Source: Candidatus Accumulibacter conexus
Lineage (GTDB): Bacteria; Pseudomonadota; Gammaproteobacteria; Burkholderiales; Rhodocyclaceae
Assembly (NCBI GenBank): GCA_017592775.1
Contig: JAGFNJ010000017.1
Location: 1 to 64,000, forward strand
Reading direction: 5' to 3'
Length of the DNA stretch: 64,000 nt
Shown here in pieces: positions 41,646 to 56,323 of this stretch; position 1 is the first letter of the stretch; each line of letters opens with the position of its first letter. A program made the position numbers and the translations under genes. Below the pieces are notes generated by a model, which had not been told where the DNA came from, searched no databases, and saw only the letters and a program-made list of their open reading frames with translations.

Positions 41646-42581
41646 TCACCCCCGGTGCAACAGGCTTGCCAGCGTCGCCAGCAGTGCCGCCGCACAGACG
41701 CCATGGGCGACCGCCAGCCACAGGCTGAAGCCCGCGAGGACCGTCAGGATGCCGAGCGCCACCGTCACGGCGAGCAGCAACAGCAGCAGCGCTGCCGCCC
41801 GCCGCCGATGCTCGGAACCGGACAGCGCCTGCACTCCCGCCGTGCCCAGAAGCAGCAACGTCGCGACGGCCGCGTAGCGGTGCAGCAGGTGCAGGTTGAC
41901 ACCCGCCGGGTCGCCTGGCTGGGGCGCCGCCTGCAGCACGGCAAGCGTCTGCAGCGCCGGCCAGCCTGCCGCCACGGGCCACCAGTTGCCGTCACAGTCG
42001 GGGAAGGTGGGGCACGCTGACGCCATGTACCCGGCGCCGATCAGCGCGCCGAGGATGACCGTCAGCGTCAGGCACGCCGCTCCCAGACGCAGCAGCACGG
42101 TTGGCGCACCGGGCCGCTGCAGCATCATCACCGGCGGCTCGCTGGCGAGCGCCACCCGCCAGGAGAAGCTGACCAGCCCGAGGCCGCCGAGGATGTTCAG
42201 CAGATTCACCAGCGTCAGCCGCGGATCGGAACTCCAGATGCCGAGCGCCGACAGCGCCAGCATCAGCAGCAGCAGCAGCGTTGCCGGCAACGCCGGCGGG
42301 CGCAGCGCCGGTCGCCGCCAGCACTGCCAGACGAGAAAGCAGGCGAGCAGCAGCGACAGTGAAGCAGCGGCTCGGTGCAGCAGGCGCGCCATCCCGTAGT
42401 CAGGTGCCGCCGGCGGCAGCGCCAGCAGCCGCGCGTAGCACGCAGGCCAGTCGGTGCAACCGAGGCCGGCGCCGTCGAGCCGCAGATAGGCGCTGACGAG
42501 AACGACCAGCAGGGACAACGCAGTCAGCAGACGCGCCAGCGCCCGGACTCGCCGCAGACGAAGGCCCTGACCGAGGTTCAC
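41646..42581 (-). CDS. COX15/CtaA-family heme A synthase, short betaproteobacterial type
   Basis: A 311-residue eight-helix membrane protein. It has the feature AYLRLDGAGLGCTDWPACYARL of the CtaA group with a paired-Cys loop, heme-ligand His in ARLLHRAAAS and NLHLLHRYAAV, and a second Cys pair (ASACPTFPDCDGNW). It starts at GTG 42581, which overlaps the stop of the upstream ctaA gene (GTGA). It probably oxidises heme O to heme A or modifies heme for the nearby oxidase, but having two such genes in tandem is unusual and the work split is unknown. Confidence 0.85.
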   Translation of the reverse strand: MNLGQGLRLRRVRALARLLTALSLLVVLVSAYLRLDGAGLGCTDWPACYARLLALPPAAPDYGMARLLHRAAASLSLLLACFLVWQCWRRPALRPPALPATLLLLLMLALSALGIWSSDPRLTLVNLLNILGGLGLVSFSWRVALASEPPVMMLQRPGAPTVLLRLGAACLTLTVILGALIGAGYMASACPTFPDCDGNWWPVAAGWPALQTLAVLQAAPQPGDPAGVNLHLLHRYAAVATLLLLGTAGVQALSGSEHRRRAAALLLLLLAVTVALGILTVLAGFSLWLAVAHGVCAAALLATLASLLHRG

Positions 42582-43630
42582 CGGGCGCGGCCGGACGCGT
42601 ACTGTGGCAGGCGCAGTTCGTGGTTCAGCCAGAGCAGCAGCCCGAGAACGACCATCGCCCCCCCCTGATGTGCCGCCCCCAGTGCTACCGGCACAGCCAA
42701 CAGCAGCGTCGCGATGCCGAGGCCGATCTGGGCGAACGCCACCACCAGCAGCAGTGCCGCCGCCAGCCGCGCCCTGTTCGACACCGCCGCCCGGCGGGTC
42801 TTCCACCATAGCCACGGCACGAGCAACGCCAACAGCCAGGCGCCCAGGCGATGGTCGAACTGCACCAGCGCCATGTTGTTGAAGAAGTTGAGGTACCAGG
42901 GATCGATGATGAAGCTCTCCGGCGGCAACACATGCCCGTTCATCAGCGGGAAGGTGTTGTAAGTCTTGCCGGCGCGAATGCCAGCGACGAAACCGCCACT
43001 GACGACCATGTAACCGACCAGGACCGTCAGCCAGAAGCCGCCGCGCTGCAGGCTTCGTACGGCCGCATCGTGCGTCGTCCCGCGGCGCGGGGAAAGGAGA
43101 TCCAGCGCCACCCAGAACATGGCGATGAAGATCAGGAAGGCCAGCGACAGATGCGCGGTCAGCCGATAGTGGCTGACGCGCGGATCATCGACCAAGCCGC
43201 TCTTCACCATGTACCAGCCCATCGCCCCCTGCAGTCCGCCGAGAACGAAGATGCCGATCAGCTTCGGCACCAGCGCCGGCTCGAGCTTGCCGCGCAGCCA
43301 GAAGTAAAGCAGGGGCAGCAGGAAGACGACACCGATCAAGCGGCCAAGGACGCGGTGCACGTACTCCCAGAAGAAGATGCCCTTGAACTCGTCGAGCGTC
43401 ATCTTGTGGTTTACCAACCGGTATTCCGGCGTCTGCCTGTACTTCTCGAAAGTCGCTTCCCACTCCGCCTGATCGAGGGGCGGAATGACACCGACGATCG
43501 GCTGCCACTCGACGATCGACAGGCCGGAATGGGTCAGGCGGGTGACGCCACCGACGACCAGGATGGCAAAGACCATGGCGCTGCAGAGCAGCAGCCAGAG
43601 CGCAACGTGTCGACGGGCGACTGTATCCAT
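42578..43630 (-). CDS. ctaA: COX15/CtaA-family heme A synthase, long alphaproteobacterial/mitochondrial type
   Basis: A 350-residue membrane protein with the COX15-type start GGVTRLTHSGLSIVEWQPI, FFWEYVHRVLGRLIG and FDHRLGAWLLALL. These carry the conserved Glu and four heme-ligand histidines. It lacks the Cys pairs seen in the neighbouring gene. The start at 43630 matches the conserved MDTVARRHVALW. A TATAAT element on the minus strand (43676-43671) gives a likely start site near 43664. It is divergent from the heme-copper enzyme genes that need its product. Confidence 0.93.
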   Translation of the reverse strand: MDTVARRHVALWLLLCSAMVFAILVVGGVTRLTHSGLSIVEWQPIVGVIPPLDQAEWEATFEKYRQTPEYRLVNHKMTLDEFKGIFFWEYVHRVLGRLIGVVFLLPLLYFWLRGKLEPALVPKLIGIFVLGGLQGAMGWYMVKSGLVDDPRVSHYRLTAHLSLAFLIFIAMFWVALDLLSPRRGTTHDAAVRSLQRGGFWLTVLVGYMVVSGGFVAGIRAGKTYNTFPLMNGHVLPPESFIIDPWYLNFFNNMALVQFDHRLGAWLLALLVPWLWWKTRRAAVSNRARLAAALLLVVAFAQIGLGIATLLLAVPVALGAAHQGGAMVVLGLLLWLNHELRLPQYASGRAR

Positions 43631-43925: not shown

Positions 43926-44075
43926 ATGGCCGACAACAACGATGGCGACATTCCGTTCATGCAGAGGCTGCTGGACAACCATTTCCTGCTTCTGTTCCTC
44001 GGCGTGGCGTCACCCGGGCTGCTCTACATCCTCTGGGGGATCATCGACATCATGAACACGCCACTCGCCAGGTAG
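43926..44075 (+). CDS. Small single-helix subunit of the heme-copper enzyme (49 aa)
   Basis: A 49-residue protein with a hydrophilic start (MADNNDGDIPFMQRLLDNH) and a single membrane helix (about 20-41). Its GGAGGG ribosome binding site is strong and it begins the operon ahead of subunits II and I with short gaps, so it is very likely a small structural or assembly subunit of the same complex. Thermus-type ba3 enzymes also have a one-helix third subunit, but I cannot show homology. Confidence 0.8.
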   Translation: MADNNDGDIPFMQRLLDNHFLLLFLGVASPGLLYILWGIIDIMNTPLAR

Positions 44076-44105
44076 GTCGTTCAGCCACATCAGGGAGATT
44101 CCAAT

Positions 44106-44645
44106 ATGAGTGCAATTCTGCCGCCATCCGAGCGGCTCTGGTGGAAGCAGCCCATCGACAAGGTCGAATGGGCGTGGATCGCGATCGCCTTTGTCTGGGG
44201 CATGATCATGTTCGCGATGATGATTTACTGGCACATCTACGGCAAGCAGAACCTGTCGAACGAGGCCTACAAGACCACCCCCGAGCTGTTCGCCGCCAAG
44301 GCCGAGAAGTTCATCGCCGAGAACACGATCCGCACCGAGACCGAGCGCAACATTCCGGTGGTCAAGGTTCCGGCCGGTGGCGACGGCTACCTGATTGCCC
44401 GCCTGTGGGACTGGTACCCGATTCTCGAACTGGAGAAGGGCCAGACCTACAAGATCCATCTGTCGTCCCTCGACTACAACCACGGCTTCTCGCTGCAACC
44501 GGTCAACATCAACATCCAGGTGATCCCGGGCTACGAGCACGTCGTCAAGATGACCCCGACGAAGGAAGGCACCTACGCCATCGTCTGCAACGAATACTGC
44601 GGCATCGGCCACCACTCGATGCTCGGCCGTATCTACGTGAAATAA
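44106..44645 (+). CDS. Heme-copper enzyme subunit II with CuA site
   Basis: A 179-residue subunit with one N-terminal membrane helix (about 20-42) and a periplasmic cupredoxin domain, the short ba3-like design rather than the longer two-helix aa3 form. CuA ligands are all visible: H126 (DYNHGFS), C161, C165, H169 and M172 (CNEYCGIGHHSM). It should accept electrons from a soluble cytochrome c or cupredoxin and pass them to subunit I, encoded 14 bases downstream. Confidence 0.93.
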   Translation: MSAILPPSERLWWKQPIDKVEWAWIAIAFVWGMIMFAMMIYWHIYGKQNLSNEAYKTTPELFAAKAEKFIAENTIRTETERNIPVVKVPAGGDGYLIARLWDWYPILELEKGQTYKIHLSSLDYNHGFSLQPVNINIQVIPGYEHVVKMTPTKEGTYAIVCNEYCGIGHHSMLGRIYVK

Positions 44646-44659
44646 GGGGGAACAACTAG

Positions 44660-46354
44660 ATGGCAACGACTTACCGTACCTGTCCCGTCTCCGGGCTGCA
44701 GTTCGAGGACCAGGCCGAGAAGCTGATGCGCTGGAACGCCGTCGCCGGCGTCCTCTGGCTGCTGGTCGGCGGCATCACGGCACTGCTCGTGATCCTCACC
44801 CGCTGGCCAGCGATCAAGCTGCTGCCGGCCGACCAGTTCTACCTGATCCTGACCGCCCACGGCATCGACATGCTGATCCTGTGGATCCTGTTCTTCGAGA
44901 TGGCCGTGCTCTACTTCGCCTCATCGACACTGCTCAGGTGCCGGCTGGCGACGCCGAAGATCGCCTGGCTCGGTTTCTGGCTGATGGTCGTCGGTGGCAT
45001 CATGACCAACGTCGCGATCTTCCAGGGCGAATCGAGCGTCATGTTCACCTCCTACGTCCCGATGCAGGCGGCATGGCACTTCTACCTCGGCATCATCCTG
45101 GTCGCCGTCGGCGCCCTCCTCGGCACGGCCGTGTTCTTCGGCACGCTGGTCGTCGCCAAGCGCGACAAGACCTACCAGGGCTCACTGCCTCTGGTCACCT
45201 TCGGCGCGCTGACCGCGGCGATCATCGCCACCTTCACCATCCTGGCGGGTGCCGGCATTCTCGTCCCAACCTTCTTCTGGTCGATCGGCCTGATCAAGGA
45301 AATCGACGCCCAGCTGTACCGCATGGTGTGGTGGGGCCTTGGGCACTCGTCGCAGCAGATCAACGTGGCGGCACACGTCTCCGTCTGGTACCTGACGGCC
45401 GCCGTGATCTTCGGCGCCAAGCCGCTGTCCGAGAAAGTGTCGCGCTTTGCCTTCCTGCTCTACATCCTCTTCCTGCAGCTCGCCAGTGCCCACCACCTGC
45501 TCTCCGACCCCGGCATGAGCGCCGAGTGGAAGGTGCTCAACACCTCCTACTTCATGTACTTCGCGGTGATGGCGTCGATGATCCACGGTTTCACGGTTCC
45601 CGGCGCGATCGAAGCGGCACAGCGGCGCAAGGGCTACACCAACGGTCTGTTCGAATGGTTGCGCAAGGCGCCATGGGGCAACCCGGTGTTCTCGGGCATG
45701 TTCATCTCGCTCGTCAGCTTCGGCTTCCTCGGCGGCATCTCCGGCGTCGTCCTCGGTACCGAGCAGATCAACATGCTGATGCACAACACCTTCTACGTTC
45801 CGGGCCACTTCCATACCACGGTCGTCACCGGCACGACACTGGCCTTCATGGCGATCACCTACCTGTTGGTACCGGTCCTTTTCCGGCGCGAGATGATCCT
45901 GCCGAAACTCTGCCAGATCCAGCCCTACCTGTTCGGCATCAGCATGTCGGTCCTCGGCCTGGTGATGATGGGCGCCGGTACCCTCGGCGTCTCGCGCCGC
46001 CACTGGGACATGGCCTTCTCCGGCGCACCGTTCCAGTATGAGTGGCCGGGTGCTGCCTACCTGATGATGGGGCTGACCGGGATCTTCGGTGTCATCGCCG
46101 TGATCGGTGGCGGCCTGTGGATTCTCCTCGTGGTCGGTTCGCTGCTCTTCGGCAAGAAGCTCGACGGTGGCAAGGTCTCCGACAAGCCGACGCCGATCCC
46201 GGCAGCGACCCAGGCGGCTTCGGCCGTGGCACACGGCAGCGATCACGTCGGCGTCCCGGGCACCGTCGTCCTCGCGCTGCTGCTCTTCGTCTCCTTCGTG
46301 TTGTACTATTTCGTCAACTGGAAGTACCTGTCGGAAGTCTGGCTGTTGAGCTGA
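44660..46354 (+). CDS. B-family heme-copper oxidoreductase subunit I lacking the active-site Tyr (possible NO reductase)
   Basis: A 564-residue catalytic subunit with about 13 membrane helices. Low-spin heme ligands are H67 (TAHGID) and H385, and the high-spin heme ligand is H383 (HNTFYVPGHFH, the B-family/ba3 form). CuB ligands are H229 and H278-H279 (ASAHHL). In oxygen reductases the first CuB His is followed four residues later by the cross-linked Tyr. Here the motif is WGLGHSSQQIN, with Gln233 at that place and no nearby Tyr. That loss is the hallmark of NO-reducing members derived from the B family (eNOR-like groups). CuA subunit II, ctaA, ctaB and sco surround it. Assignment as NO reductase is inference; annotation pipelines would call it cytochrome c oxidase. 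Confidence 0.9.
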   Translation: MATTYRTCPVSGLQFEDQAEKLMRWNAVAGVLWLLVGGITALLVILTRWPAIKLLPADQFYLILTAHGIDMLILWILFFEMAVLYFASSTLLRCRLATPKIAWLGFWLMVVGGIMTNVAIFQGESSVMFTSYVPMQAAWHFYLGIILVAVGALLGTAVFFGTLVVAKRDKTYQGSLPLVTFGALTAAIIATFTILAGAGILVPTFFWSIGLIKEIDAQLYRMVWWGLGHSSQQINVAAHVSVWYLTAAVIFGAKPLSEKVSRFAFLLYILFLQLASAHHLLSDPGMSAEWKVLNTSYFMYFAVMASMIHGFTVPGAIEAAQRRKGYTNGLFEWLRKAPWGNPVFSGMFISLVSFGFLGGISGVVLGTEQINMLMHNTFYVPGHFHTTVVTGTTLAFMAITYLLVPVLFRREMILPKLCQIQPYLFGISMSVLGLVMMGAGTLGVSRRHWDMAFSGAPFQYEWPGAAYLMMGLTGIFGVIAVIGGGLWILLVVGSLLFGKKLDGGKVSDKPTPIPAATQAASAVAHGSDHVGVPGTVVLALLLFVSFVLYYFVNWKYLSEVWLLS

Positions 46355-46484: not shown

Positions 46485-47381
46485 ATGCAATCGACACTCC
46501 CATCGAACAGCACTCCCGGTCTTTCCATCCGTGCCATTCTGGGCGTCTTCAAGCTGCGCATCGGCGTCGTCATCACCTTCACCGCCCTTGCCGGACTGGC
46601 GGTCAGCACCGGTCCCTCGCTGACCCCGCTGCAGTTGCTGGTCCTGGCCCTGTCGGTGCTGGTCTCGTCGGCCAGCGCGGGCGCCTTCAACCAGTATTAC
46701 GAACACGACACCGATCACCTGATGGCGCGCACCAGCAAGCGCCCATTCGTCACCGGTCAGCTCCGCCACGGTCCCGTCTGGCTGCTGCTGATCGCCGCGC
46801 TGATGGCCCTGTCGGTCGGTGCCGCGTGGATCGCGCTCAATGCCTGGTCGGCGCTGTTCGTCTTCCTCGGCGCCTTCTTCTACGCCATCGTCTATACCGT
46901 CTGGCTCAAGCGCCGCACCTGGCTGAACATCGTCTTCGGCGGACTTGCCGGCAGTTGGGCAGTGCTCGCCGGTGCGACCGCTGCCGATCCGCAACTCGGC
47001 GCCGTGCCGCTGGCACTGGCACTGGTCCTCTTCCTGTGGACACCGCCACACTTCTGGAGCCTCGCCATCGCCTTCCGTGACGACTACGCCGCCGCCGGAG
47101 TGCCGATGCTGCCGGTGGTCGTCGGCGATCAGCGGGCCGCGAACACGATCTTCGCCAGCACGCTGGCACTGGTTGCCGCCAGCCTGCTGCCGCTGGCCTT
47201 CGGCCTCGGCCCGATCTACTTCGCCGGTGCGGCGATCGGTGGCTTCCTGTTCATCCAGAAAGCGTGGCTGCTGACGCGGCAGCCGAACCGCAAGACGGCG
47301 ATGGTCTGCTTCCACGCGTCGCTGATGCAATTGACCTTGGTCCTTTGCGCCGCCATCGTCGACACGCAGTTGCGGTTCTGA
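46485..47381 (+). CDS. ctaB: Protoheme IX farnesyltransferase (heme O synthase)
   Basis: A 298-residue UbiA-family prenyltransferase that farnesylates heme B to heme O, the precursor for the CtaA proteins. The first Asp-rich motif is NQYYEHDTDHLMARTSKRP and the second lies in FRDDYAAAGVPMLPVV. Nine helices are predicted. Its presence shows that the neighbouring enzyme uses an O- or A-type heme. Confidence 0.96.
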   Translation: MQSTLPSNSTPGLSIRAILGVFKLRIGVVITFTALAGLAVSTGPSLTPLQLLVLALSVLVSSASAGAFNQYYEHDTDHLMARTSKRPFVTGQLRHGPVWLLLIAALMALSVGAAWIALNAWSALFVFLGAFFYAIVYTVWLKRRTWLNIVFGGLAGSWAVLAGATAADPQLGAVPLALALVLFLWTPPHFWSLAIAFRDDYAAAGVPMLPVVVGDQRAANTIFASTLALVAASLLPLAFGLGPIYFAGAAIGGFLFIQKAWLLTRQPNRKTAMVCFHASLMQLTLVLCAAIVDTQLRF

Positions 47382-47401
47382 CTCGTGACGGGCGACATGC
47401 G

Positions 47402-48340
47402 GTGATTCGACCAAGCTTCCGGGTCCGGCGAACCGCTCTGCCGACAGTCCGACTGCCGTTGCTCCGGGCAGCACTGCTCGGTTTCATCGCCGCCCTGCTT
47501 CTGCTGGCCGCGAACCCGCTGCGCGCCGATGAAACGGCCGGCGACAAGCCCAAACTCACCGCCCGGCCGCAAGGCGCCAACAGCGGCCTGGCGCTGACCA
47601 CGCTCGACGAGAAGGCTGCCTTCACGCTGTCGCAGGCGGCGATCGGCAAGACGGTCGGCGATTTCGTCCTCCTTGACCGCCAGGGAAGACCGGTCGAGCT
47701 GTCGCGCTATCGCGGCAAGCCGCTCGTCGTCACCTTCATCTACACCGCCTGCTTCCAGGTCTGCCCGACGATCACGCGCAACCTGCAGAAAGCTGTCGAC
47801 ACGACGGTCAGCGTCATGGGCGCCGATCGCTTCAACGTCATCAGCATCGGTTTCAACCAGCCCTTCGACTCGCCGGCCGCACTGGCGGACTTCTCCCGGC
47901 AGTACGGCATCCGCCTGCCGAACTGGGAATTCCTCAGCCCTGCCCCGGCGATCGTCGGCGACCTGACGGCCAATTTCGGTTTCAGCTACGTCGCCACGCC
48001 GGCAGGCTTCGACCATATCAACCAGGTGACGCTGGTAGACGCCGACGGGCGGATCGTCCGCCAGGTCTACGGCGAGAAGTTCACCGCCGAAGACCTCGCC
48101 GAACCGCTCAAGCTGCTGATCACCGGCTCGGCGATCCCGCCCGAGGTCGGCACGCTGCAGGAGATCATGGAACGTGTGCGCATCCTCTGCTCGATCTACG
48201 ATCCGATCACCGGCCGCTACCGGACCAACTATTCACTCTACTTCCAGTTTGCCGGCTTCATCACCTTCGTCGGCTTCATGATCTATCTGTCAATCAATTT
48301 CTGGAAGAACCGGCGCCGCAGCGAAGGCAGGGCGCAGTAG
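47402..48340 (+). CDS. SCO1/SenC-family copper chaperone with C-terminal membrane anchor
   Basis: A thioredoxin-fold copper-delivery protein for CuA assembly. It has a signal/anchor helix (about 22-38), the copper motif CFQVC (C117, C121) and the third ligand His in GFDHINQV (near 206). Unlike ordinary Sco proteins it carries ~90 further residues ending in a second membrane helix (about 280-300, FVGFMIYLSINFW), so it is anchored at both ends. No ATG exists in frame. GTG 47402 is the best start (312 aa), with a poor ribosome binding site; TTG 47459 is possible. Confidence 0.9.
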   Translation: MIRPSFRVRRTALPTVRLPLLRAALLGFIAALLLLAANPLRADETAGDKPKLTARPQGANSGLALTTLDEKAAFTLSQAAIGKTVGDFVLLDRQGRPVELSRYRGKPLVVTFIYTACFQVCPTITRNLQKAVDTTVSVMGADRFNVISIGFNQPFDSPAALADFSRQYGIRLPNWEFLSPAPAIVGDLTANFGFSYVATPAGFDHINQVTLVDADGRIVRQVYGEKFTAEDLAEPLKLLITGSAIPPEVGTLQEIMERVRILCSIYDPITGRYRTNYSLYFQFAGFITFVGFMIYLSINFWKNRRRSEGRAQ

Positions 48341-48344
48341 CGCG

Positions 48345-48827
48345 ATGCAGCGCTTCACCATCTCGCTCGAGGCACCGCTGGCCGAGGCCTTCGACGAACT
48401 GATCCGCAGCAAGGGCTACCGCTCACGCTCGGAGGCGATCCGCGACCTGCTACGGCAGCAACTCGGTGCGCATCAGCTGCAGCGTGACGAAGCGCCCCAT
48501 TGCATCGCCGCCCTCTCCTACATCTACAACCACCACCAGCGCGAACTGGCGGAGCGCCTGACGGCACTGCAGCATCAGCACCACGACCTGACGCTGTCGG
48601 CCATGCACGCCCACCTCGACCACGACAACTGCATCGAAACGGTGTTCCTGCGCGGGCCGACGATGGCCGTTCGCGAGTTTGCCGACGCGCTGCTGGCCGA
48701 GCGCGGTGTTCGCCACGGCCAGCTCAACCTGGTACCGGCAGACATCGGGCACGAGCCGCATCAGCACCAGTCCGCGTCCGGCGCGGGCGGCATCCTGACA
48801 CACGTCCATAGCACCCCGAAGACCTGA
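48345..48827 (+). CDS. nikR: NikR-family nickel-responsive regulator
   Basis: A 160-residue ribbon-helix-helix regulator. The N-terminal DNA-binding part is MQRFTISLEAPLAEAFDELI with RSKGYRSRSEAIRDLLR, and the ACT-like domain carries the metal site residues in SAMHAHLDHDNCIETVFLRG. It begins 4 bases after the sco stop, so it is in the same unit. No nickel enzyme or transporter is nearby, so here it may sense another metal or control the surrounding operon. The tail is His-rich (GHEPHQHQ). Confidence 0.9.
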   Translation: MQRFTISLEAPLAEAFDELIRSKGYRSRSEAIRDLLRQQLGAHQLQRDEAPHCIAALSYIYNHHQRELAERLTALQHQHHDLTLSAMHAHLDHDNCIETVFLRGPTMAVREFADALLAERGVRHGQLNLVPADIGHEPHQHQSASGAGGILTHVHSTPKT

Positions 48828-48843: not shown

Positions 48844-48885
48844 TTGACCCGCGTCAATTCGCCGCGCAAGGGCGACCAATATAAT
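48844..48885 (+). promoter_or_regulatory. FNR/Dnr-type box with consensus -10
   Basis: A perfect palindrome TTGAC-CCGC-GTCAA (48844-48857) is centred 29.5 bases before TATAAT (48880-48885). With the start site near 48892, the box is at -41.5, the exact class II FNR/CRP position. It lies 17 bases after nikR and in front of the cytochrome b fusion operon. Which family member binds (FNR, Anr, Dnr, NnrR) cannot be told. Confidence 0.75.
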
Positions 48886-48927
48886 CAATGGCTAATAATT
48901 ACCGGCGGCACACCTCCTGATCCTTCC

Positions 48928-50499
48928 GTGAGTTTCCACACCACTTTGCGCAAGGGCGCGAGCAGCGTCTTCCTGCGCATCGAAGAGGCTCTCGACGGAC
49001 CTTTTGGCGGCGCCGACAACCCGCTGCGCCATCTCGGCGCCCTCGGCCTCTATCTGCTCTGGATCATCGTCGGCAGCGGCCTCTATCTGTACACCGTGCT
49101 CGATACCGGCATCGACGCCGTGTACAACTCGATCGGCTACCTCTCCGTCGAGCAGTGGTACCTTGGCGGGGTCCTGCGCAGCCTGCATCGCTACGCGTCC
49201 GACGGCTTCATGCTGGTGATGACGCTGCACCTGATCCGTGAATGGTGCTACGGGCGCTACTACGGCTTCCGCCTCTATTCGTGGATCACCGGTGTGCCGC
49301 TGCTCTGGCTGGCCTACATCAGCGGCATCGGCGGCTACTGGATCGTCTGGGATCAACTCGCGCAGCTCTCCGCCACCGCCACGGCCGAGTTGCTCGACTG
49401 GCTGCCGATCTTCAGCGAGCCTTCGGCCCGCAACTTCCTCACCCCCGACTCGATCAGCGATCGTTTCTTCACCATGCTGGTCTTCATCCACATCGGCGTG
49501 CCGCTGCTGCTGATCCTCGGCCTCTGGGCGCACGTGCATCGCATCAGCCATGTCGACTACCTGCCGACGCGGCGGGTGATGCTGGCGACGCTGCTGGCGC
49601 TGATCGTCCTCTCGCTGCTGCAGCCGGCGCTCAGCAACCCGCCGGCCAACCTGGCAGTGATTCCCGGCGACCTCGACTTCGACTGGTTCATCCTCTTCAT
49701 CCATCCGCTGACCGACCTCACTTCGCCAGCGATCGTCTGGCTGCTGCTCTTCGCCCTCACCGCCCTGCTGGTCGCCCTGCCATTGCTGCCACATCCGCCG
49801 CCGGAACCGGTGGCGGTGGTCGACGCGGCCAACTGCACCGGCTGCGATCGCTGCCTTGCCGACTGCCCCTACGCGGCGATCAGCATGCAGCCGCACCCGC
49901 TGCGCCCGGGCTTCAAGCTCGCCGTCGTCGACAGTGACCTGTGTGCAGCCTGCGGCATCTGTGCCGGCTCGTGCCCTTCCTCGACACCCTTCCGCCGCCG
50001 CGAGACGCTGGTCACCGGCATCGACATGCCGCAGCAACCGGTCCATGCGCTGCGCGAGCAACTCGAACAGACACTGACGGGGCTCTCGGGCCCGCGCCGG
50101 GTCGTCGTCTTCGCCTGCGCCCGTGGGGCCGACGCCAGCGGGCTGGCGGCCGCCGATACGGTGGTCATGCCGCTGCTGTGCGCCGGCATGCTGCCGCCGT
50201 CCTTCGTCGAGTACGCGCTGCGCGGCGGCGCCGACGGCGTGCTGCTGAACACCTGCCGCCCGGGGGGCTGTGACTTCCGGCTCGGCGATCGCTGGACGCG
50301 CGAGCGCCTCGCGGGCGAGCGTGAACCGCACCTGCGGCGAACGGTCCCCGCTGCCCGCCTGCAGCTCTCTGCCGCCGCCGCCGGCGACGAAAGCACCCTC
50401 AGCGCTGCCCTGGACGATCTCAGAACCCGCCTCGACAACGAGGCTCTGGCTGGCGAGCCACTTCCACCCTATCTGCGGAGAGCCTCAAACCATGCTTAA
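48928..50499 (+). CDS. Cytochrome b - 2[4Fe-4S] ferredoxin - MvhD fusion
   Basis: A ~523-residue three-part fusion. Residues 1-290 are a cytochrome b/b6 N-terminal bundle with two bis-His heme pairs at the classical 14-residue spacing (H87/H101, H188/H202). Residues 300-350 hold two [4Fe-4S] motifs (CTGCDRCLADCP, CAACGICAGSCP). Residues 390-460 resemble the MvhD/FlpD electron-transfer domain (C397, C418, C443, C448 in CARGAD, PLLCAGM, NTCRPGGCDF). It should move electrons between quinones and a soluble iron-sulfur partner. The upstream TTG at 48844 lies inside the FNR box, so GTG 48928 is chosen; its ribosome binding site is poor. Confidence 0.88.
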   Translation: MSFHTTLRKGASSVFLRIEEALDGPFGGADNPLRHLGALGLYLLWIIVGSGLYLYTVLDTGIDAVYNSIGYLSVEQWYLGGVLRSLHRYASDGFMLVMTLHLIREWCYGRYYGFRLYSWITGVPLLWLAYISGIGGYWIVWDQLAQLSATATAELLDWLPIFSEPSARNFLTPDSISDRFFTMLVFIHIGVPLLLILGLWAHVHRISHVDYLPTRRVMLATLLALIVLSLLQPALSNPPANLAVIPGDLDFDWFILFIHPLTDLTSPAIVWLLLFALTALLVALPLLPHPPPEPVAVVDAANCTGCDRCLADCPYAAISMQPHPLRPGFKLAVVDSDLCAACGICAGSCPSSTPFRRRETLVTGIDMPQQPVHALREQLEQTLTGLSGPRRVVVFACARGADASGLAAADTVVMPLLCAGMLPPSFVEYALRGGADGVLLNTCRPGGCDFRLGDRWTRERLAGEREPHLRRTVPAARLQLSAAAAGDESTLSAALDDLRTRLDNEALAGEPLPPYLRRASNHA

Positions 50500-50989
50500 A
50501 CCCGCCGCCATCATCGGCCAGGTGATCCTCTACGGAGCCTTTGCCGCCTTCATCGGCTACTTCGCCACCTCGCCAAAATACCACCAGGTTGCCGACGACG
50601 TGGCGCTGATCAAGTTGTCGATCAGCCACCTTGGCGAGCGTGAATGCCGCAAGCGAACTGCCGAGGAACTGGCGAAGATGCCGCCCAACATGCGCGCGCC
50701 GCTGGACTGCCCGCGCGAGCGCTCGGACATCAGGCTGGAAGTGGATCTCGACGGTCAGCCCATCCTGCAGACCGTGATGCACCCGACCGGCCTCTACAAG
50801 GATGGCGTATCGACGATCTACAAGCGTTTCGAGGTGAAGGCCGGCAGTCATCGGCTCGCGGTCCGGATGAACGACAACCTCGTCAAACCGGGATTCAACT
50901 TCGTCAAGGAAGAGCAGATCAGCCTCAAGCCCCATCAGGTGATGGTGATCGACTTCAACCCCGACCGGGGTGGCCTGTTCTTCAGGTGA
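50492..50989 (+). CDS. Membrane-anchored protein linking two cytochrome b fusions (165 aa)
   Basis: A 165-residue protein with one N-terminal membrane helix (about 7-26) and a soluble beta-rich domain outside the membrane. It has two Cys (RECRKR and LDCPRERSD) and no heme or Fe-S motif. The start overlaps the upstream stop by 8 bases with GGAGAG as ribosome binding site. Sandwiched between two cytochrome b fusions, it is probably a subunit or assembly factor of that complex. I do not recognise the family. Confidence 0.8.
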   Translation: MLKPAAIIGQVILYGAFAAFIGYFATSPKYHQVADDVALIKLSISHLGERECRKRTAEELAKMPPNMRAPLDCPRERSDIRLEVDLDGQPILQTVMHPTGLYKDGVSTIYKRFEVKAGSHRLAVRMNDNLVKPGFNFVKEEQISLKPHQVMVIDFNPDRGGLFFR

Positions 50990-51051: not shown

Positions 51052-52965
51052 ATGGTCAAGTTCCTGCAACAAATCCTGCGCTGGCTGTTCATGCGCGTCG
51101 AGAACATCTTCAACGTCGCTTTCGGCGACAAGATGAACCCCTTCTACCATCTGGGCACGATCAGCTTCTGGCAGTTCTGGCTGCTGCTCGTCTCCGGTCT
51201 GTACCTCTACATCTTCGCCGACACCGGCGTCCATGACGCCTTCGAGTCGGTCGAGAGCATCACCCACGACCAGTGGTGGGCCGGCGGCATCCTGCGCAGC
51301 ATCCACCGCTACGCCACCGACGGCATGATCCTGACGATGCTGCTGCACATGCTGCGGCACTTTGCCTACGACCGCTATCGCGGCTTTCGCTCGTTCTCCT
51401 GGCTGACCGGAGTCGCCCTGCTGTGGCTGATCTACATCGCCGGCGTCAATGGCTTCATGCTCGTCTGGGACAAGCTGGCACAGTTCGTCGTCATCGCCAC
51501 CGCCGAGTGGTTCGATGTCCTGCCGATGTTCAACGGCACGCTGATCCGCAATTTCCTCTACCTCGAGAGCGTCAACAGCCGGCTGTTCACGCTGCTCGCC
51601 TTCATCCACATCGGTGCGCCGCTGATCGTCGCCTTCATCATGTGGGTGCATGTGCAGCGCGTGCCGCGGGCGCACATCAACCCGCCGCGGCCGATCGCCA
51701 TCGCCGTGACGCTGATGTTCCTGGTGCTGTCGCTGGTCAAACCGATCCTCAGCCAGGGTGGCGAGGCCGACATGTCGGTGGTGCCGACGAACATCGACTT
51801 CGACTGGTTCGAGCTGCCGGTTCTGGCGCTGGTCTACGTGACCAACCCCATGCACCTCTGGTACTGGGTTCTCGGGCTGACCGCCCTCCTCCTCCTGGTG
51901 CCGTGGCTGCCGCCGAAGAAGCGCGGCTCGGCGCAGGCGCTGACCTCGGTCACCTTCCATCCCGACCGGCGGGCGGTCAGCGCCCGCTTCGACGAGACGC
52001 TGCTCGACGCCGGACTGCGCCAGGACATCGACCTGCCGTACGAATGCCGCAACGGCGGTTGCGGCGTCTGCAAGTGCACCGTCCTGCACGGCAGGGTCGA
52101 TCCCGGCCTCTACCAGCCGAGCGCGCTGTCGGCCGCGGAGCTGGCGCAGGGCAAGGTCCTGATGTGCTGCGCCACTGCGCTCGAGGACGCCGAAATCGAG
52201 TACCAGGCGAGCGCGGCGCCGAAAGCCTTCCGCGAATACACGGCGAAGGTCGTCCACCTGCACCGGCTGACGCACGATGTCATGCAGGTGCTGCTGCGAC
52301 TGCCCGACGGCGAGCAGATCAGCTTCAAGGCCGGCCAGTACGTCAACATCATTCTGGATGATGGTCAGCGACGCGCCTTCTCCTTCGCCAACCCGCCGCA
52401 CCAGCCCGACTTCGTCGAACTGCAGATCCGCCTGATGCCCGGCGGCCGCTTCACGACGCACGTCTTCGAAGCGATGAAGGAAGGCGACGAAGTCCGCTTC
52501 GAGGGACCGATCGGCGACTTCAGCCTGCGCGAGTCGGAGCGGCCGATCGTCTTCGTCGCCGGCGCCACCGGCTTCGCGCCAGTCAAGAGCATGGTCGAGG
52601 ATGCCTTCAAGCGCGGATTGAAACGCGAGATCCACCTCTACTGGGGGGTGAAGACCCTCAAGGACCTCTACCTGCCCGAGTTGCCGGCCCGCTGGGCGCG
52701 CGAGCACGCCAACTTCCACTTCATCCCCGTGCTCTCCGAGCCGGCTGCCGAAGACCAGTGGAGCGGCCGTACCGGTCTGGTGCACGAGGCGATTCTCGCC
52801 GACTTCCCCGAGCTGAAGCAGCACGAGATCTACGCCTGCGGCTCGGTGCGCATGGTCGAGGCGATCTTCCCCTTCCTCAAGCAGCATGGAGCCGAGGACG
52901 GCGCCTGCTTCTCGGATGCTTTCAGTGTGTCGGCACGCTCGATGGCGTTTCAGCCCCGGAAGTAG
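51052..52965 (+). CDS. Cytochrome b - [2Fe-2S] - FAD/NAD reductase fusion
   Basis: A 637-residue fusion. Residues 1-290 form a cytochrome b/b6 bundle with heme pairs H85/H99 and H186/H200. Residues 300-390 are a plant-type [2Fe-2S] ferredoxin (C332, C337, C340, then C372/C373). Residues 395-637 are a ferredoxin-reductase module with the FAD motif RAFSFAN, the NAD(P) motif GATGFAP and CGSVRM near the end. It can join the quinone pool to NAD(P)H in one polypeptide. A fusion of this kind was reported in the first Accumulibacter metagenome and proposed to reoxidise quinol anaerobically with NAD(P)+, using the proton gradient. The direction is not visible from sequence. Confidence 0.9.
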   Translation: MVKFLQQILRWLFMRVENIFNVAFGDKMNPFYHLGTISFWQFWLLLVSGLYLYIFADTGVHDAFESVESITHDQWWAGGILRSIHRYATDGMILTMLLHMLRHFAYDRYRGFRSFSWLTGVALLWLIYIAGVNGFMLVWDKLAQFVVIATAEWFDVLPMFNGTLIRNFLYLESVNSRLFTLLAFIHIGAPLIVAFIMWVHVQRVPRAHINPPRPIAIAVTLMFLVLSLVKPILSQGGEADMSVVPTNIDFDWFELPVLALVYVTNPMHLWYWVLGLTALLLLVPWLPPKKRGSAQALTSVTFHPDRRAVSARFDETLLDAGLRQDIDLPYECRNGGCGVCKCTVLHGRVDPGLYQPSALSAAELAQGKVLMCCATALEDAEIEYQASAAPKAFREYTAKVVHLHRLTHDVMQVLLRLPDGEQISFKAGQYVNIILDDGQRRAFSFANPPHQPDFVELQIRLMPGGRFTTHVFEAMKEGDEVRFEGPIGDFSLRESERPIVFVAGATGFAPVKSMVEDAFKRGLKREIHLYWGVKTLKDLYLPELPARWAREHANFHFIPVLSEPAAEDQWSGRTGLVHEAILADFPELKQHEIYACGSVRMVEAIFPFLKQHGAEDGACFSDAFSVSARSMAFQPRK

Positions 52966-53331
52966 CGAGACGATCGGCAACACGGCCGCCCTCGCGCAGG
53001 CAGGGCGGGGACCCTGCCGGCCCTCGTAAACAGAGAGACCCGCGGCGCGCCGTCAGGGGCGTTCGGGCCAACGCGGACAGTACGGCAGCTCGCCGCTGTT
53101 CCGAGGCCCGCCACGACACCAGGCGAGGCGAGTTCCCGGCACGCCGGCACGCTGCTGACGCGACGGCTGCTCATGACCTTGCGAGTCTTGTGATGCGTAC
53201 CCGCCCTGGTATCGTCTTCCTCCACGGACAGGCAGTGCGCTTCGAGGAAGCGGCCCGAGGCCATTTTCTGCCAGATGCGGTCACCGCGTCTTACAATGTG
53301 CGGAAAGTTTCCAACGACAGGGAGGCCACAC
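52966..53331. other. Intergenic region before the cytochrome c gene
   Basis: No gene is supported in these 366 bases. TACAAT at 53292-53297 is a likely -10 for the cytochrome c gene (start near 53304), with no good -35. I see no FNR-type box here. The ribosome binding site GGGAGG lies just before the ATG at 53332. Confidence 0.4.
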
Positions 53332-53961
53332 ATGAAGAAAGCGAATCTTGTCCGGCACCGCAGTCGCCTGCCACTTGCCGTACTGCTCCTCGGCCTGTTT
53401 CCCTTGGTGAGCCAAGCGGCCGACCGGAGCGGCAAGGAAGTGGTCGATACAGTCTGCATCGCCTGCCACGGACCGGGCAAGGACGGCGCCCCGAAGATCG
53501 GCGACCGGGCCGAATGGGCCAAGCGAGCCTCCAAAGGGTTGGACAAGCTCAATGAAAACGCCATCACCGGCGTGCGCCGGATGCCCGCTCATGGCGGCCA
53601 AGCGACTCTCACCGACCTCGAGATGACACGCGGCGTCGCCTACCTGGTCAGCGGTGGAGCAGCAACCGATCCACAGAAGCCGTACACGCCTGCCCGAATC
53701 CGTAGCGGTGAACAGGTCGTCAAGGAACGCTGTCAGGAATGCCACGCCGACGGCAAGAACGGCGCTCCCAAGATCGGTGACATCGACGCCTGGAAGCCTC
53801 GCCTGCAGAACGGCGTCGCCCCTCTGGTCAACTCTGCCATTGGTGGCCACAAGGGCATGCCGGCACGAGGCGGCATGGCGAGCCTGAGCGACGCCGAAAT
53901 CCGTGCTGCCGTCAATTACATGGTCGGCCAGACCGCGGGCGCTGCAGTGAAGCAGCACTGA
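53332..53961 (+). CDS. Periplasmic diheme cytochrome c
   Basis: A 209-residue exported protein with a signal peptide (cleaved after about SQAA, residue 30) and two similar class I cytochrome c domains of the c5 type. Heme motifs are CIACH (C42, C45, H46) and CQECH (C134, C137, H138). Probable Met ligands lie in RRMPAHGG and KGMPARGG. The repeated DGAPKIGD segment after each heme shows that the gene arose by internal duplication. It is a plausible electron donor to the CuA subunit upstream. Confidence 0.93.
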   Translation: MKKANLVRHRSRLPLAVLLLGLFPLVSQAADRSGKEVVDTVCIACHGPGKDGAPKIGDRAEWAKRASKGLDKLNENAITGVRRMPAHGGQATLTDLEMTRGVAYLVSGGAATDPQKPYTPARIRSGEQVVKERCQECHADGKNGAPKIGDIDAWKPRLQNGVAPLVNSAIGGHKGMPARGGMASLSDAEIRAAVNYMVGQTAGAAVKQH

Positions 53962-54038: not shown

Positions 54039-54620
54039 TCAGTCCCCGGCCAGCCGCAACAGAATCGGTTCCAGCGTCGCTTCGTCGAGCCGCCCCAGGC
54101 GGCTCCCCTCGAGCCGCCCGTCGCGGTCGATGACTATTGTGGTGGGCAGTCCGCGCACCTGCAGGGCGGGCGTCTGGCTGCCGGCCGCGTCGCCGACCAG
54201 CAGCGGGTAGGCCACCGGCGTCCGGCGGACGAAGGCCTGCATCTTCTCCACGTCGTCGATGCCGATGCCGACGAACTGCACGCCGCGTGCCGCGTACTTC
54301 TCCTGCAGGCGCGAGAAGGCCGGCATTTCCTCGACGCACGGCGCGCACCAACTGGCCCAGTAATTGACCACCAGCACCTTGCCGCGCCACTGCGCCATCG
54401 CCTGCGGCTTGCCGGCAAGATCGGGCAGCGTCAGCGCCATGATCGCTTCGACCGTCGCCTGCCCCTGCTCCGGCGGCAGTTTCGACGCCGCGATCAGTCC
54501 GGGCGGAATCGCGCCCGGCAACTGTGCCGGCTGCAGCAGACGGTAACCGAGCCAGCCGATCGTCGCCAGCGTCGCCACGCCGGCCGCCAGCGCCAGCACG
54601 AGCGCGGTCTCCCGTTTCAT
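54039..54620 (-). CDS. TlpA-type membrane-anchored thioredoxin
   Basis: A 193-residue periplasmic thiol-disulfide protein with an N-terminal membrane anchor (about 5-26) and a thioredoxin fold carrying WCAPC at 91-95 and a cis-Pro in RGLPTTIVI. Its ATG overlaps the stop of the upstream heme-copper-like gene by 4 bases. The pairing suggests a role in metal-site or cytochrome maturation for that protein. Confidence 0.92.
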   Translation of the reverse strand: MKRETALVLALAAGVATLATIGWLGYRLLQPAQLPGAIPPGLIAASKLPPEQGQATVEAIMALTLPDLAGKPQAMAQWRGKVLVVNYWASWCAPCVEEMPAFSRLQEKYAARGVQFVGIGIDDVEKMQAFVRRTPVAYPLLVGDAAGSQTPALQVRGLPTTIVIDRDGRLEGSRLGRLDEATLEPILLRLAGD

Positions 54621-55981
54621 CGCTGGCGGCCGCCAGACATCGCCTTCAGACAGACGAGGACGAACATCAGGCCGCCGATGACGGCGATCAGTCCGCCGAG
54701 TCCCATCATTCCCATGCCGATCTTCTGCGGCAGCGTCGTCAGGAACTGGTCGGCGCCGGCAACCTTGCGCTGCACGCCGTAGCCGCCCGACCAGGCGAGA
54801 CCGAGGACATGGATCAGTTGCCCGGCACCATAGACATAGGGCTGCCAGATCGCCATCGCTCCCTCGGCACGAGCGAAGCCGAGCACCGGCAGCAGGACAT
54901 AGGCGAGCCCCATGAACGCCAGCGTCACACCGACCGTCGACCCGTGATAATGCGCCGGGATGACGACATTGACGCCGTGGATCGCGTAGCCAAGCGCGCC
55001 GCCAAGGGCAAAGAGGACGAACGAGGCGACGAAGGCCGACTTCGCCGGATCGGCCGCCGCGCCGCGCACGCGCCACAGCGCCAGCGCTCCTGCCAGCAGC
55101 AGCGGCAACATGTAGGGATGGCCCCAGATCATCAGCTTGGCGAACAGTTCGACATGCGGCAGCGAGCCGACCGGTACCAGCAGGTAGATGGCGACCACGG
55201 CCAGCAGCGGCAGCGCCGCGACGACGAACATCAGCGATTGCGCGCGCGGCGAGGCCGGCGCCGGTCTGCCGAGCGCAGCGGCGATCCACAACCAGGCGAC
55301 GACCATCAGCAGCGAATGCTGGAACTGCAGCGTGTGCCCGCCGCCCCAGAAGATCACCTCGTAATAGATCTGCCCCTCGACCCACGGCACCAGCCACCAC
55401 GAGACGAAGAACGCCGCCAACGAGAGCAGCGCCGCCAGCGCGCCCAGGAAGGAACCGAGACGCAGCGGGTCGGCGAGGAACGGCCGCGGCCAGGAGGTCA
55501 GCAGCGCACGCACGACGGCCAGCGTCGTCCCGGCGCCGAAAATCCACAGCGAGGCAAAGAACAGCGGCTGCTCGAGAACCGGGATGTAGTTGTTGAGCAC
55601 CGGTTCCGCGCCGGGAAAGAACGGCGACACCGTCATCAGCGCGGTGCCCAGCGCCGCCAGCGCGAAACCGCTCCAGCCGAGCCAGGCCAGCCCCGGCCGG
55701 CCGACCACCGACCAGATGACGACGGCGAAGGCCATGAACCAGACGGCCACCGACAGGTCGACATGCACCACCAGCGCAGCGCGAAAGAGGTCCTTGAGCG
55801 GAAACACGTCCTGGATCCCAGGCGTTCGCGACAATACCAACAATACCGCCAGCAAACCGGATCCGATCAGCGCCATCACCCCCAGCCACAGCCAGGCACG
55901 CGCCAGCGCCACCGGCGTGCCGGCGACTGGTAGCGGCGCGGCCACCGTTGCTGCGGGAAGTGCTACCGCTTTTTCATCCAT
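54617..55981 (-). CDS. Divergent heme-copper oxidase subunit I-like protein with incomplete CuB site
   Basis: A 454-residue membrane protein with 12 predicted helices. Heme ligands are in place: H73 (VVHVDLSV) in helix II and H344/H346 in helix X (NVVIPAHYHGSTVG). Helix VI has H216 in FWGGGHTLQFQH, with Phe at the +4 place where oxidases have Tyr. The usual His-His pair of helix VII is missing; only H276 and H288 (IWGHPYM) are near. No subunit II is encoded beside it, only a TlpA thioredoxin. It is probably annotated as cbb3-type oxidase in databases, but ordinary oxygen reduction is doubtful. Confidence 0.85.
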   Translation of the reverse strand: MDEKAVALPAATVAAPLPVAGTPVALARAWLWLGVMALIGSGLLAVLLVLSRTPGIQDVFPLKDLFRAALVVHVDLSVAVWFMAFAVVIWSVVGRPGLAWLGWSGFALAALGTALMTVSPFFPGAEPVLNNYIPVLEQPLFFASLWIFGAGTTLAVVRALLTSWPRPFLADPLRLGSFLGALAALLSLAAFFVSWWLVPWVEGQIYYEVIFWGGGHTLQFQHSLLMVVAWLWIAAALGRPAPASPRAQSLMFVVAALPLLAVVAIYLLVPVGSLPHVELFAKLMIWGHPYMLPLLLAGALALWRVRGAAADPAKSAFVASFVLFALGGALGYAIHGVNVVIPAHYHGSTVGVTLAFMGLAYVLLPVLGFARAEGAMAIWQPYVYGAGQLIHVLGLAWSGGYGVQRKVAGADQFLTTLPQKIGMGMMGLGGLIAVIGGLMFVLVCLKAMSGGRQR

Positions 55982-56323
55982 GACTGCCTCGGCCGGGAAA
56001 AGCGGCAGAGTATACGGTGCGCAGGCCACCATCGCCAAGCCGCAGCCGGCAGCTCACGGCAACTCCCGAAAAGCCACGGCACTGCTGGCGCGCCCCCTTC
56101 CCGGAAAGGCTTTCGCGCCCGGCGCCAGCCACCGCCGCCAGCGGATGGCGAGACGTGCGCGGGGCTGCTGTCGACGCCGCTTCGAGAACTATTTCCGCGC
56201 CAACGGCAAGGCGATCGCGAAAATGGGTTTGTCGCGGTGATGTCGCGTCGGCAGCCGCGAACGCCGCACCGCCCGTGTTCTGCCGTTTTCCGACGCGCTA
56301 CCCCTGCAGCCGAAAGTCCGATC
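55982..56323. other. Intergenic region
   Basis: Beyond the minus-strand promoter at 56009-56038, I see no gene or clear signal in these 342 bases. The frames that cross it are biased by high GC and do not resemble proteins. Confidence 0.4.
56009..56038 (-). promoter_or_regulatory. Promoter of the divergent heme-copper-like gene
   Basis: On the minus strand TTGGCG (56038-56033) is followed after 18 bases by TATACT (56014-56009). Transcription would start near 56002, leaving a ~20-base leader before the ATG at 55981, with GAGG as ribosome binding site. Confidence 0.55.

Follow-up and report, generated by a model that had tools for sequence, protein, structure and literature searches.

The 64,000-nucleotide stretch of Candidatus Accumulibacter conexus DNA that we analysed (hereafter the window) carries an operon for a single-helix small subunit, a CuA-containing subunit II and a catalytic subunit I (Table 1) that, at a probability of roughly 0.82, encodes an eNOR-type nitric oxide (NO) reductase, wrongly labelled a ba3 cytochrome c oxidase. 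The enzyme is of a known kind, and its gene is a universal, misread one in a genus in which NO reduction is reported as patchy or missing. Accumulibacter is the bacterium chiefly responsible for phosphorus removal in wastewater plants. The window sits on contig C12 of a 4.87-Mb genome in 102 contigs, and its closest named relatives are Candidatus Accumulibacter, among which Ca. A. necessarius is 99% identical (the window's own record was possibly left out of this comparison).

A preliminary description of this operon, made from its letters alone, had proposed a candidate NO reductase derived from the B family of heme-copper enzymes. In the translated subunit I, the histidines on which that proposal relied (H67, H229, H278, H279, H383 and H385) and the HNTFYVPGHFH signature are all present, and the residue four positions after H229 (GHSSQQ) is indeed Gln233 rather than tyrosine. 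The CuA subunit II and the 49-residue one-helix subunit likewise correspond to open reading frames (ORFs) that lie with subunit I on the plus strand, and Pfam matches bear out the nearby ctaA, ctaB and sco genes. From the heme-copper superfamily at large, we take H67 and H385 to bind the low-spin heme, H383 the high-spin heme, and H229, H278 and H279 to bind CuB. These six histidines are invariant in two alignments of 13 and 32 rows, and position 233 is Gln in 124/124 homologous loci scoring above 400 bits, a set that includes the 80 named loci and some repeat fetches of the same gene. Together with a ratio of nonsynonymous to synonymous substitution rates (dN/dS) of 0.02-0.13 for subunit I against six relatives, this uniformity rules out a chance substitution, a sequencing slip or a pseudogene.

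By sequence and predicted fold, subunit I is a B-family heme-copper protein. It matches PF00115 with 215.6 bits, its nearest solved structures by sequence are 7deg (212 bits), which we take to be an Aquifex-type B-family oxidase, and the Thermus thermophilus ba3 oxidase (1ehk, about 197 bits), and these two also rank first for the predicted fold, with TM scores of 0.72-0.75 from a model whose mean predicted local distance difference test score (pLDDT) is only 71.4. The window enzyme thus resembles ba3 in fold, sequence and possession of a CuA subunit, and differs from it in that Gln233 aligns to ba3 Tyr237. Tyrosine occupies this position in 11/11 B-family comparison proteins, seven of them plasmid-borne and four from Pseudomonadota genomes; the plasmid comparison covered 10 records fetched of 59 matched, which comprised seven Tyr-type proteins (from haloarchaea, Deinococcus, Geobacillus and Methylobacterium) and three Gln-type ones. 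A substitute tyrosine elsewhere near CuB had been named as evidence that would speak for an oxidase, and none of the cbb3 kind was found by alignment: the position three residues after the second histidine of the HH pair, which is Tyr in the window genome's own cbb3 enzyme, is S282 in the window enzyme and A, V or S in 12 aligned relatives.

The eNOR family is reportedly due to Hemp and Gennis (2008), and the Rhodothermus marinus enzyme is said to have been described by Murali et al. (2024). According to PMC8756737, the eNOR family is marked by Gln at this site, whereas sNOR and CuANOR have Asn (Table A4), gNOR has Asp, and cNOR and qNOR have Glu. Because Gln here is the published eNOR mark, we file the window enzyme as an eNOR. 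By the same residue, sNOR and bNOR (Asn), gNOR (Asp) and cNOR and qNOR (Glu, read as HLWVE in the sister Accumulibacter genomes) are ruled out, and Gln233 stands where ba3-type B-family O2 reductases have their cross-linked Tyr. The preliminary description had left the choice between eNOR and sNOR open; Gln233 points to the former, since sNOR has Asn. Further likenesses to the eNOR family are the three CuB histidines, a subunit II of the CuA cupredoxin kind, a single predicted proton channel and misannotation as an oxidase. The sNOR of nitrifiers (NorSY) and the bNOR/CuANOR of Bacillus share the B-family core and CuA subunit, and the Bacillus system additionally has a 46-aa membrane peptide and an adjoining SenC/SCO gene (PMC3475470), but both have Asn where the window enzyme has Gln, as given in Table A4 of PMC8756737 and in PMC3475470. 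Putative eNORs, frequently with a wrong annotation as cytochrome c oxidase, are noted in Alpha-, Beta-, Gamma- and Deltaproteobacteria (PMC8756737) and are reported in Zetaproteobacteria and Gallionellaceae in passages of PMC8114936 and PMC10734462; one has been biochemically characterised, according to a passage of PMC11388526. The window enzyme differs from these in lying within a wider cassette, described below, and in its host, for which searches of open-licence papers found no eNOR report.

The alignment and tree that had been suggested as a check separate the Gln-type enzymes from the Tyr-type B-family proteins. In a tree from which a second heme-copper protein of the neighbourhood and aa3 sequences were left out, the 23 Gln-type rows form one side of a branch supported at 97/98 and present in 98% of 200 bootstrap trees, and support for the group of 11 Tyr-type rows is 80/92. 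With the second protein and aa3 included, support is 99/96 for the Tyr-type rows, 100/99 for the Gln-type rows plus the second protein and 82/90 for the Gln-type rows alone; the place of the second protein is unsure because its branch is 2.99 changes per site long. Plasmid-borne enzymes of Thermomicrobium roseum (49% identity) and T. thermophilus (48%) fall in the Gln-type group, and Rrf2, DUF542 and cytochrome P460 genes lie near the Thermus Gln-type copy. This Thermus plasmid eNOR (locus L159, 5983-7668) reads GHFK in place of the usual GHFH, with Lys at the position of H385. Three distant matches were left out of the tree, one (L192) aligning poorly and two (L190 and L191) belonging to another divergent heme-copper lineage. 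The latter pair, a paralog in two genomes of the same order, has Tyr aligned both to one CuB histidine (SLYHMF) and to a histidine of the HxH motif (VPGYFHF).

In an alignment of 81 subunits II (the window and 80 of the 83 loci tried), the CuA ligands H126 and C161 are present in all 81 and C165, H169 and M172 in 80. E21, whose position we take to be that of Glu15 at the K-channel entry of ba3, is likewise present in 81/81. Of the other K-channel residues of ba3, S261, Y248, S309 and T315 align to S257, Y244, S306 and T312 of the window enzyme, whereas ba3 T312 aligns to H309, which is invariant in the 13-row and 32-row alignments, and ba3 Y244 aligns to Val240. Since the ba3 channel residues are kept except at these two positions, a K-like proton path probably survives in altered form. 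The ctaB gene after the operon and the divergent ctaA gene before it suggest heme o or heme a as the cofactor.

The subunit I gene occurs in 28/28 Accumulibacter genomes (in pieces in G008, G014 and G026), and a full-length NirS of at least 478 bits in all of them except G005. A canonical cNOR or qNOR, with HLWVE read in each case, was found in 10 of the 28 (G004, G006, G007, G009, G011, G012, G015, G020, G022 and G023) and not in the window genome; 17 of the 18 genomes without one have NirS. NosZ is present in 15 (G007 and G017 only as pieces under the family cut-off), and NirS and NosZ occur together without a canonical NO reductase (NOR) in six genomes (G000, G002, G008, G013, G014 and G017). 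Four PF00115 matches each are found in the window genome and in two single-contig ones, G005 and G013; judged by their score, length and position, they are an aa3-type, a cbb3-type and an eNOR-type protein and the second heme-copper protein.

Across a phylum sample of 398 evenly drawn genomes, 30 carry the Gln-type enzyme once four Tyr-type B-family matches (in G349, G138, G314 and G362) are counted as eNOR-negative. A cytochrome cd1 match (E <= 1e-115) was found in 25/30 of the eNOR genomes versus 24/368 of the others (Fisher p 2e-21, uncorrected for kinship), and a hand count at a threshold of at least 430 bits gave NirS in 18/30 versus 19/368. NirK was found in none of the 30. NirS also lies on the same contig less than 15 kb from the eNOR genes in several genomes (for example G393, G132, G084, G045, G112 and G049), and at no less than 58% identity it is found within the 10-kb flanks of 10/80 named loci; this count excludes hits in L091 and L116 with about 25% identity.

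Boxes of the TTGAYN4RTCAA type bind FNR, Anr or Dnr. An exact box of this type precedes the operon and is the window's sole match to TTGATN4ATCAA with at most one mismatch. Across loci, 53/77 have a TTGAYN4RTCAA box of no more than one mismatch (24 of them exact) within the 300 bp before the small-subunit gene, against a background of 4.3% (1.5% for exact matches) among 3080 pieces of 300 bp drawn at random from these loci, although the counts are not independent because the loci are related. A Crp/Fnr-type regulator homolog is present in 17/80 named loci (Pfam checked in L098), and in 10/80 its gene runs divergently from subunit I, 1.7-2.7 kb upstream. As for published transcripts, 'ba3 (cbaA, cbaB)' appears as a terminal oxidase of all Accumulibacter genomes in the relevant passages of PMC6446978, and cbaAB would be the gene pair of the window because it is the sole B-family match per genome. 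The same passages describe the 'ba3' transcript of UW-1 as high in anaerobic stages and declining once aeration starts.

The NO reductase candidacy put forward in the preliminary description gains support from the Gln in place of Tyr, the intact CuB and CuA ligands, the separate grouping, the K-channel positions, the linkage and co-occurrence with NirS and the FNR/Dnr-type boxes. These features and the operon itself are seen in the sequences; NO turnover, the electron donor, electrogenicity and heme type are inferred. A periplasmic c-type cytochrome would hand electrons to CuA in subunit II, from which they would pass to the low-spin heme (H67/H385) and on to the site formed by the second heme (H383) and CuB (H229, H278 and H279), where two NO molecules from NirS would be joined to N2O. 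Gln233 would replace the Tyr that donates an electron and a proton when O2 is cleaved, and protons would come from the cytoplasm via E21 of subunit II and S257, Y244, S306, H309 and T312. Such a K-channel-like path would draw cytoplasmic protons, and the reaction may therefore be electrogenic; given NOR function, we lean modestly towards electrogenic turnover over pure detoxification.

NO reduction that serves detoxification only, without energy conservation, is a variant of the eNOR reading that we regard as rather unlikely. It would suit the 13/28 genus genomes that carry the enzyme without NosZ, the absence of NirS from G005 and the NO-stress-type neighbours of the Thermus copy, but the conserved K-channel positions, the E21 found in every aligned subunit II and the CuA and cytochrome c-type wiring speak against it.

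The eNOR operon also heads a conserved cassette that contains two cytochrome b fusions and the second heme-copper protein, an observation that we regard as new. Among the named loci the commonest gene order, of which variants exist, begins with the small subunit, the CuA subunit, subunit I, (ctaB) and SCO and continues with a cytochrome b/4Fe-4S/MvhD-like protein, a 165-aa protein, the second heme-copper protein and a cytochrome b/2Fe-2S/FAD/NAD(P) protein. In the 51 loci with at least 9.5 kb of downstream DNA, SCO was found near the eNOR genes in every case, the 165-aa protein in 48/51, the second heme-copper protein in 43/51 and ctaB in 41/51; each cytochrome b fusion was found in 48/51, although the two are related proteins and can therefore cross-hit. 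The second heme-copper protein retains both sets of heme histidines, has AIYLL in place of the helix VII CuB His-His pair and Phe at the Tyr position, and recurs beside eNOR across Beta- and Gammaproteobacteria. Its profile found no solved structure by sequence, but its predicted model matches heme-copper structures; no match to it was found among plasmids. Recurrent-neighbour clusters without a Pfam match (two of four checked) were dropped.

It is conceivable, though doubtful, that the whole cassette is one machine, an extension compatible with an eNOR, in which electrons from NAD(P)H or ferredoxin would pass through the two cytochrome b fusions to eNOR and the second protein would bind or relay NO. 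The resemblance in gene order among the named loci, the cassette counts and the occurrence of the second protein in 29/30 eNOR genomes versus 29/368 others of the phylum sample are in its favour, yet the second protein also occurs without eNOR and the cassette is broken up in several Accumulibacter genomes: loci L040, L041 and L056 have no downstream cassette genes in the fetched DNA. In the window itself, the second protein is more distant and on the opposite strand. We give only a small chance to the idea that the eNOR of Accumulibacter and many other Proteobacteria belongs to an undescribed NO-respiring assembly that is fed by the two cytochrome b fusions and in which the second protein binds NO or relays electrons. 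A cytochrome b/b6 carrying fused flavin domains has reportedly come under discussion as the 'novel cytochrome' of Accumulibacter for anaerobic metabolism; if that is the same gene, it would form part of an eNOR neighbourhood. A novel cytochrome is mentioned only in passing in PMC2289847.

That the enzyme is instead a high-affinity O2 reductase, active despite lacking the Tyr and with NO reduction at most a side reaction, is improbable. Fold and sequence are closest to ba3 oxidases, the Tyr-less sNOR of Nitrosomonas europaea is up under O2 limitation and has been proposed as a high-affinity oxidase (PMC6967387), and UW-LDO-IC transcripts of 'ba3' cluster with aa3 (PMC6446978), but this reading must contend with the uniform Gln at the Tyr position and the want of a cbb3-type substitute by alignment, the NirS association of the Gln-type enzyme and the aa3-type and cbb3-type proteins already present in the window genome.

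Several points weigh against assignment as an NO reductase. The tree was built without the characterised Rhodothermus enzyme and without Asn-type sNOR or bNOR sequences. Five of the 30 eNOR genomes in the phylum sample (G120, G124, G156, G163 and G228) have neither NirS at threshold nor NirK, single-contig G005 has the enzyme but no NirS, and the co-occurrence counts ignore kinship and come from searches in which no more than a few top candidates of each genome receive a score. The predicted FNR/Dnr boxes would fit control by anoxia or NO, but also a microaerobic oxidase. The portions of PMC6446978 on UW-LDO-IC describe 'ba3' transcripts as little changed and place 'ba3' with aa3 in an FNR-repressed, high-O2 cluster that also holds nirS-2, so that the published transcript data are mixed with respect to an NO role.

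Surveys of Accumulibacter look for norB, norC or norZ, and NO reduction is reported as missing or a bottleneck in the relevant parts of PMC12766714, PMC10949500 and PMC6446978. Thus, norB is given for 44 metagenome-assembled genomes (MAGs) and norC for six, with NOR a 'common bottleneck', in a passage of PMC12766714; NOR is split into cNor and qNor only where PMC10949500 classifies it; norBC is reported in two MAGs (PMC9238405); and a passage of PMC6446978 remarks on how few genomes have norZ despite NO toxicity. We found no report of an Accumulibacter eNOR in the open-licence papers searched, though Murali et al. (2024) may list the genus. If the enzyme is a true eNOR, Accumulibacter could in principle make N2O from NO with or without cNOR or qNOR, and six of the 18 genomes without a canonical NOR would gain a NirS-NOR-NosZ set on paper, with the eNOR gene in pieces in G008 and G014 and NosZ in pieces in G017. 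This would call for revised models of N2O emission and of phosphate uptake under anoxia. The value of this assignment lies in making the 'missing NOR' of Accumulibacter testable, not in a new enzyme kind, and the genus offers an abundant, enrichable organism for testing energy conservation by NO reduction.

Table 1. Features of the eNOR locus and its surroundings, in window positions.
Feature	Position	Strand	Basis or remark
ctaA (heme A synthase), divergent	42578..43600	-	PF02628, 373.5 bits
FNR/Dnr-type box TTGACATGCATCAA	43791..43804	+	ends about 120 bp 5' of the small-subunit gene
Single-helix small subunit, 49 aa	43926..44075	+	ORF; homolog in 75/80 named loci
CuA subunit II, 179 aa	44106..44645	+	ORF; CuA ligands kept
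Catalytic subunit I, putative eNOR type, 564 aa	44660..46354	+	ORF, PF00115, alignments, tree
His67 codon, presumed low-spin heme ligand	44858..44860	+	invariant in alignments
Codons H229 (presumed CuB ligand) to Q233 (in place of cross-linking Tyr)	45344..45358	+	alignments
Codons H278-H279, presumed CuB ligands	45491..45496	+	alignments
H309 codon, aligned to ba3 K-channel T312	45584..45586	+	invariant in aligned Q-type enzymes
Codons H383-F384-H385, presumed high-spin/low-spin heme ligands	45806..45814	+	alignments
ctaB (UbiA-type heme O synthase)	46485..47381	+	PF01040, 176.4 bits
SCO/SenC copper chaperone ORF	47264..48340	+	PF02630, 52.7 bits for 47426-48340; real start further inside the ORF
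NikR-type ribbon-helix-helix regulator	48345..48827	+	PF08753 and PF01402
Fusion of cytochrome b with 4Fe-4S and MvhD/FlpD-like domains	48844..50499	+	domain matches
165-aa conserved protein	50492..50989	+	no Pfam match; in 48/51 loci
Fusion of cytochrome b with 2Fe-2S ferredoxin, FAD and NAD(P) domains	51052..52965	+	domain matches
Diheme cytochrome c	53275..53961	+	PF13442, two stretches; seldom part of the cassette at other loci
Second, degenerate heme-copper subunit I-like protein	54617..56038	-	CuB His-His pair of helix VII missing

The NikR-type regulator gene, an insertion in the cassette of the window, is found in only 4/87 loci searched, all of them Accumulibacter and representing at most three distinct genomes. 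A second COX15/CtaA-like protein (41646-42815, minus strand), scoring only 104 bits, adjoins ctaA.

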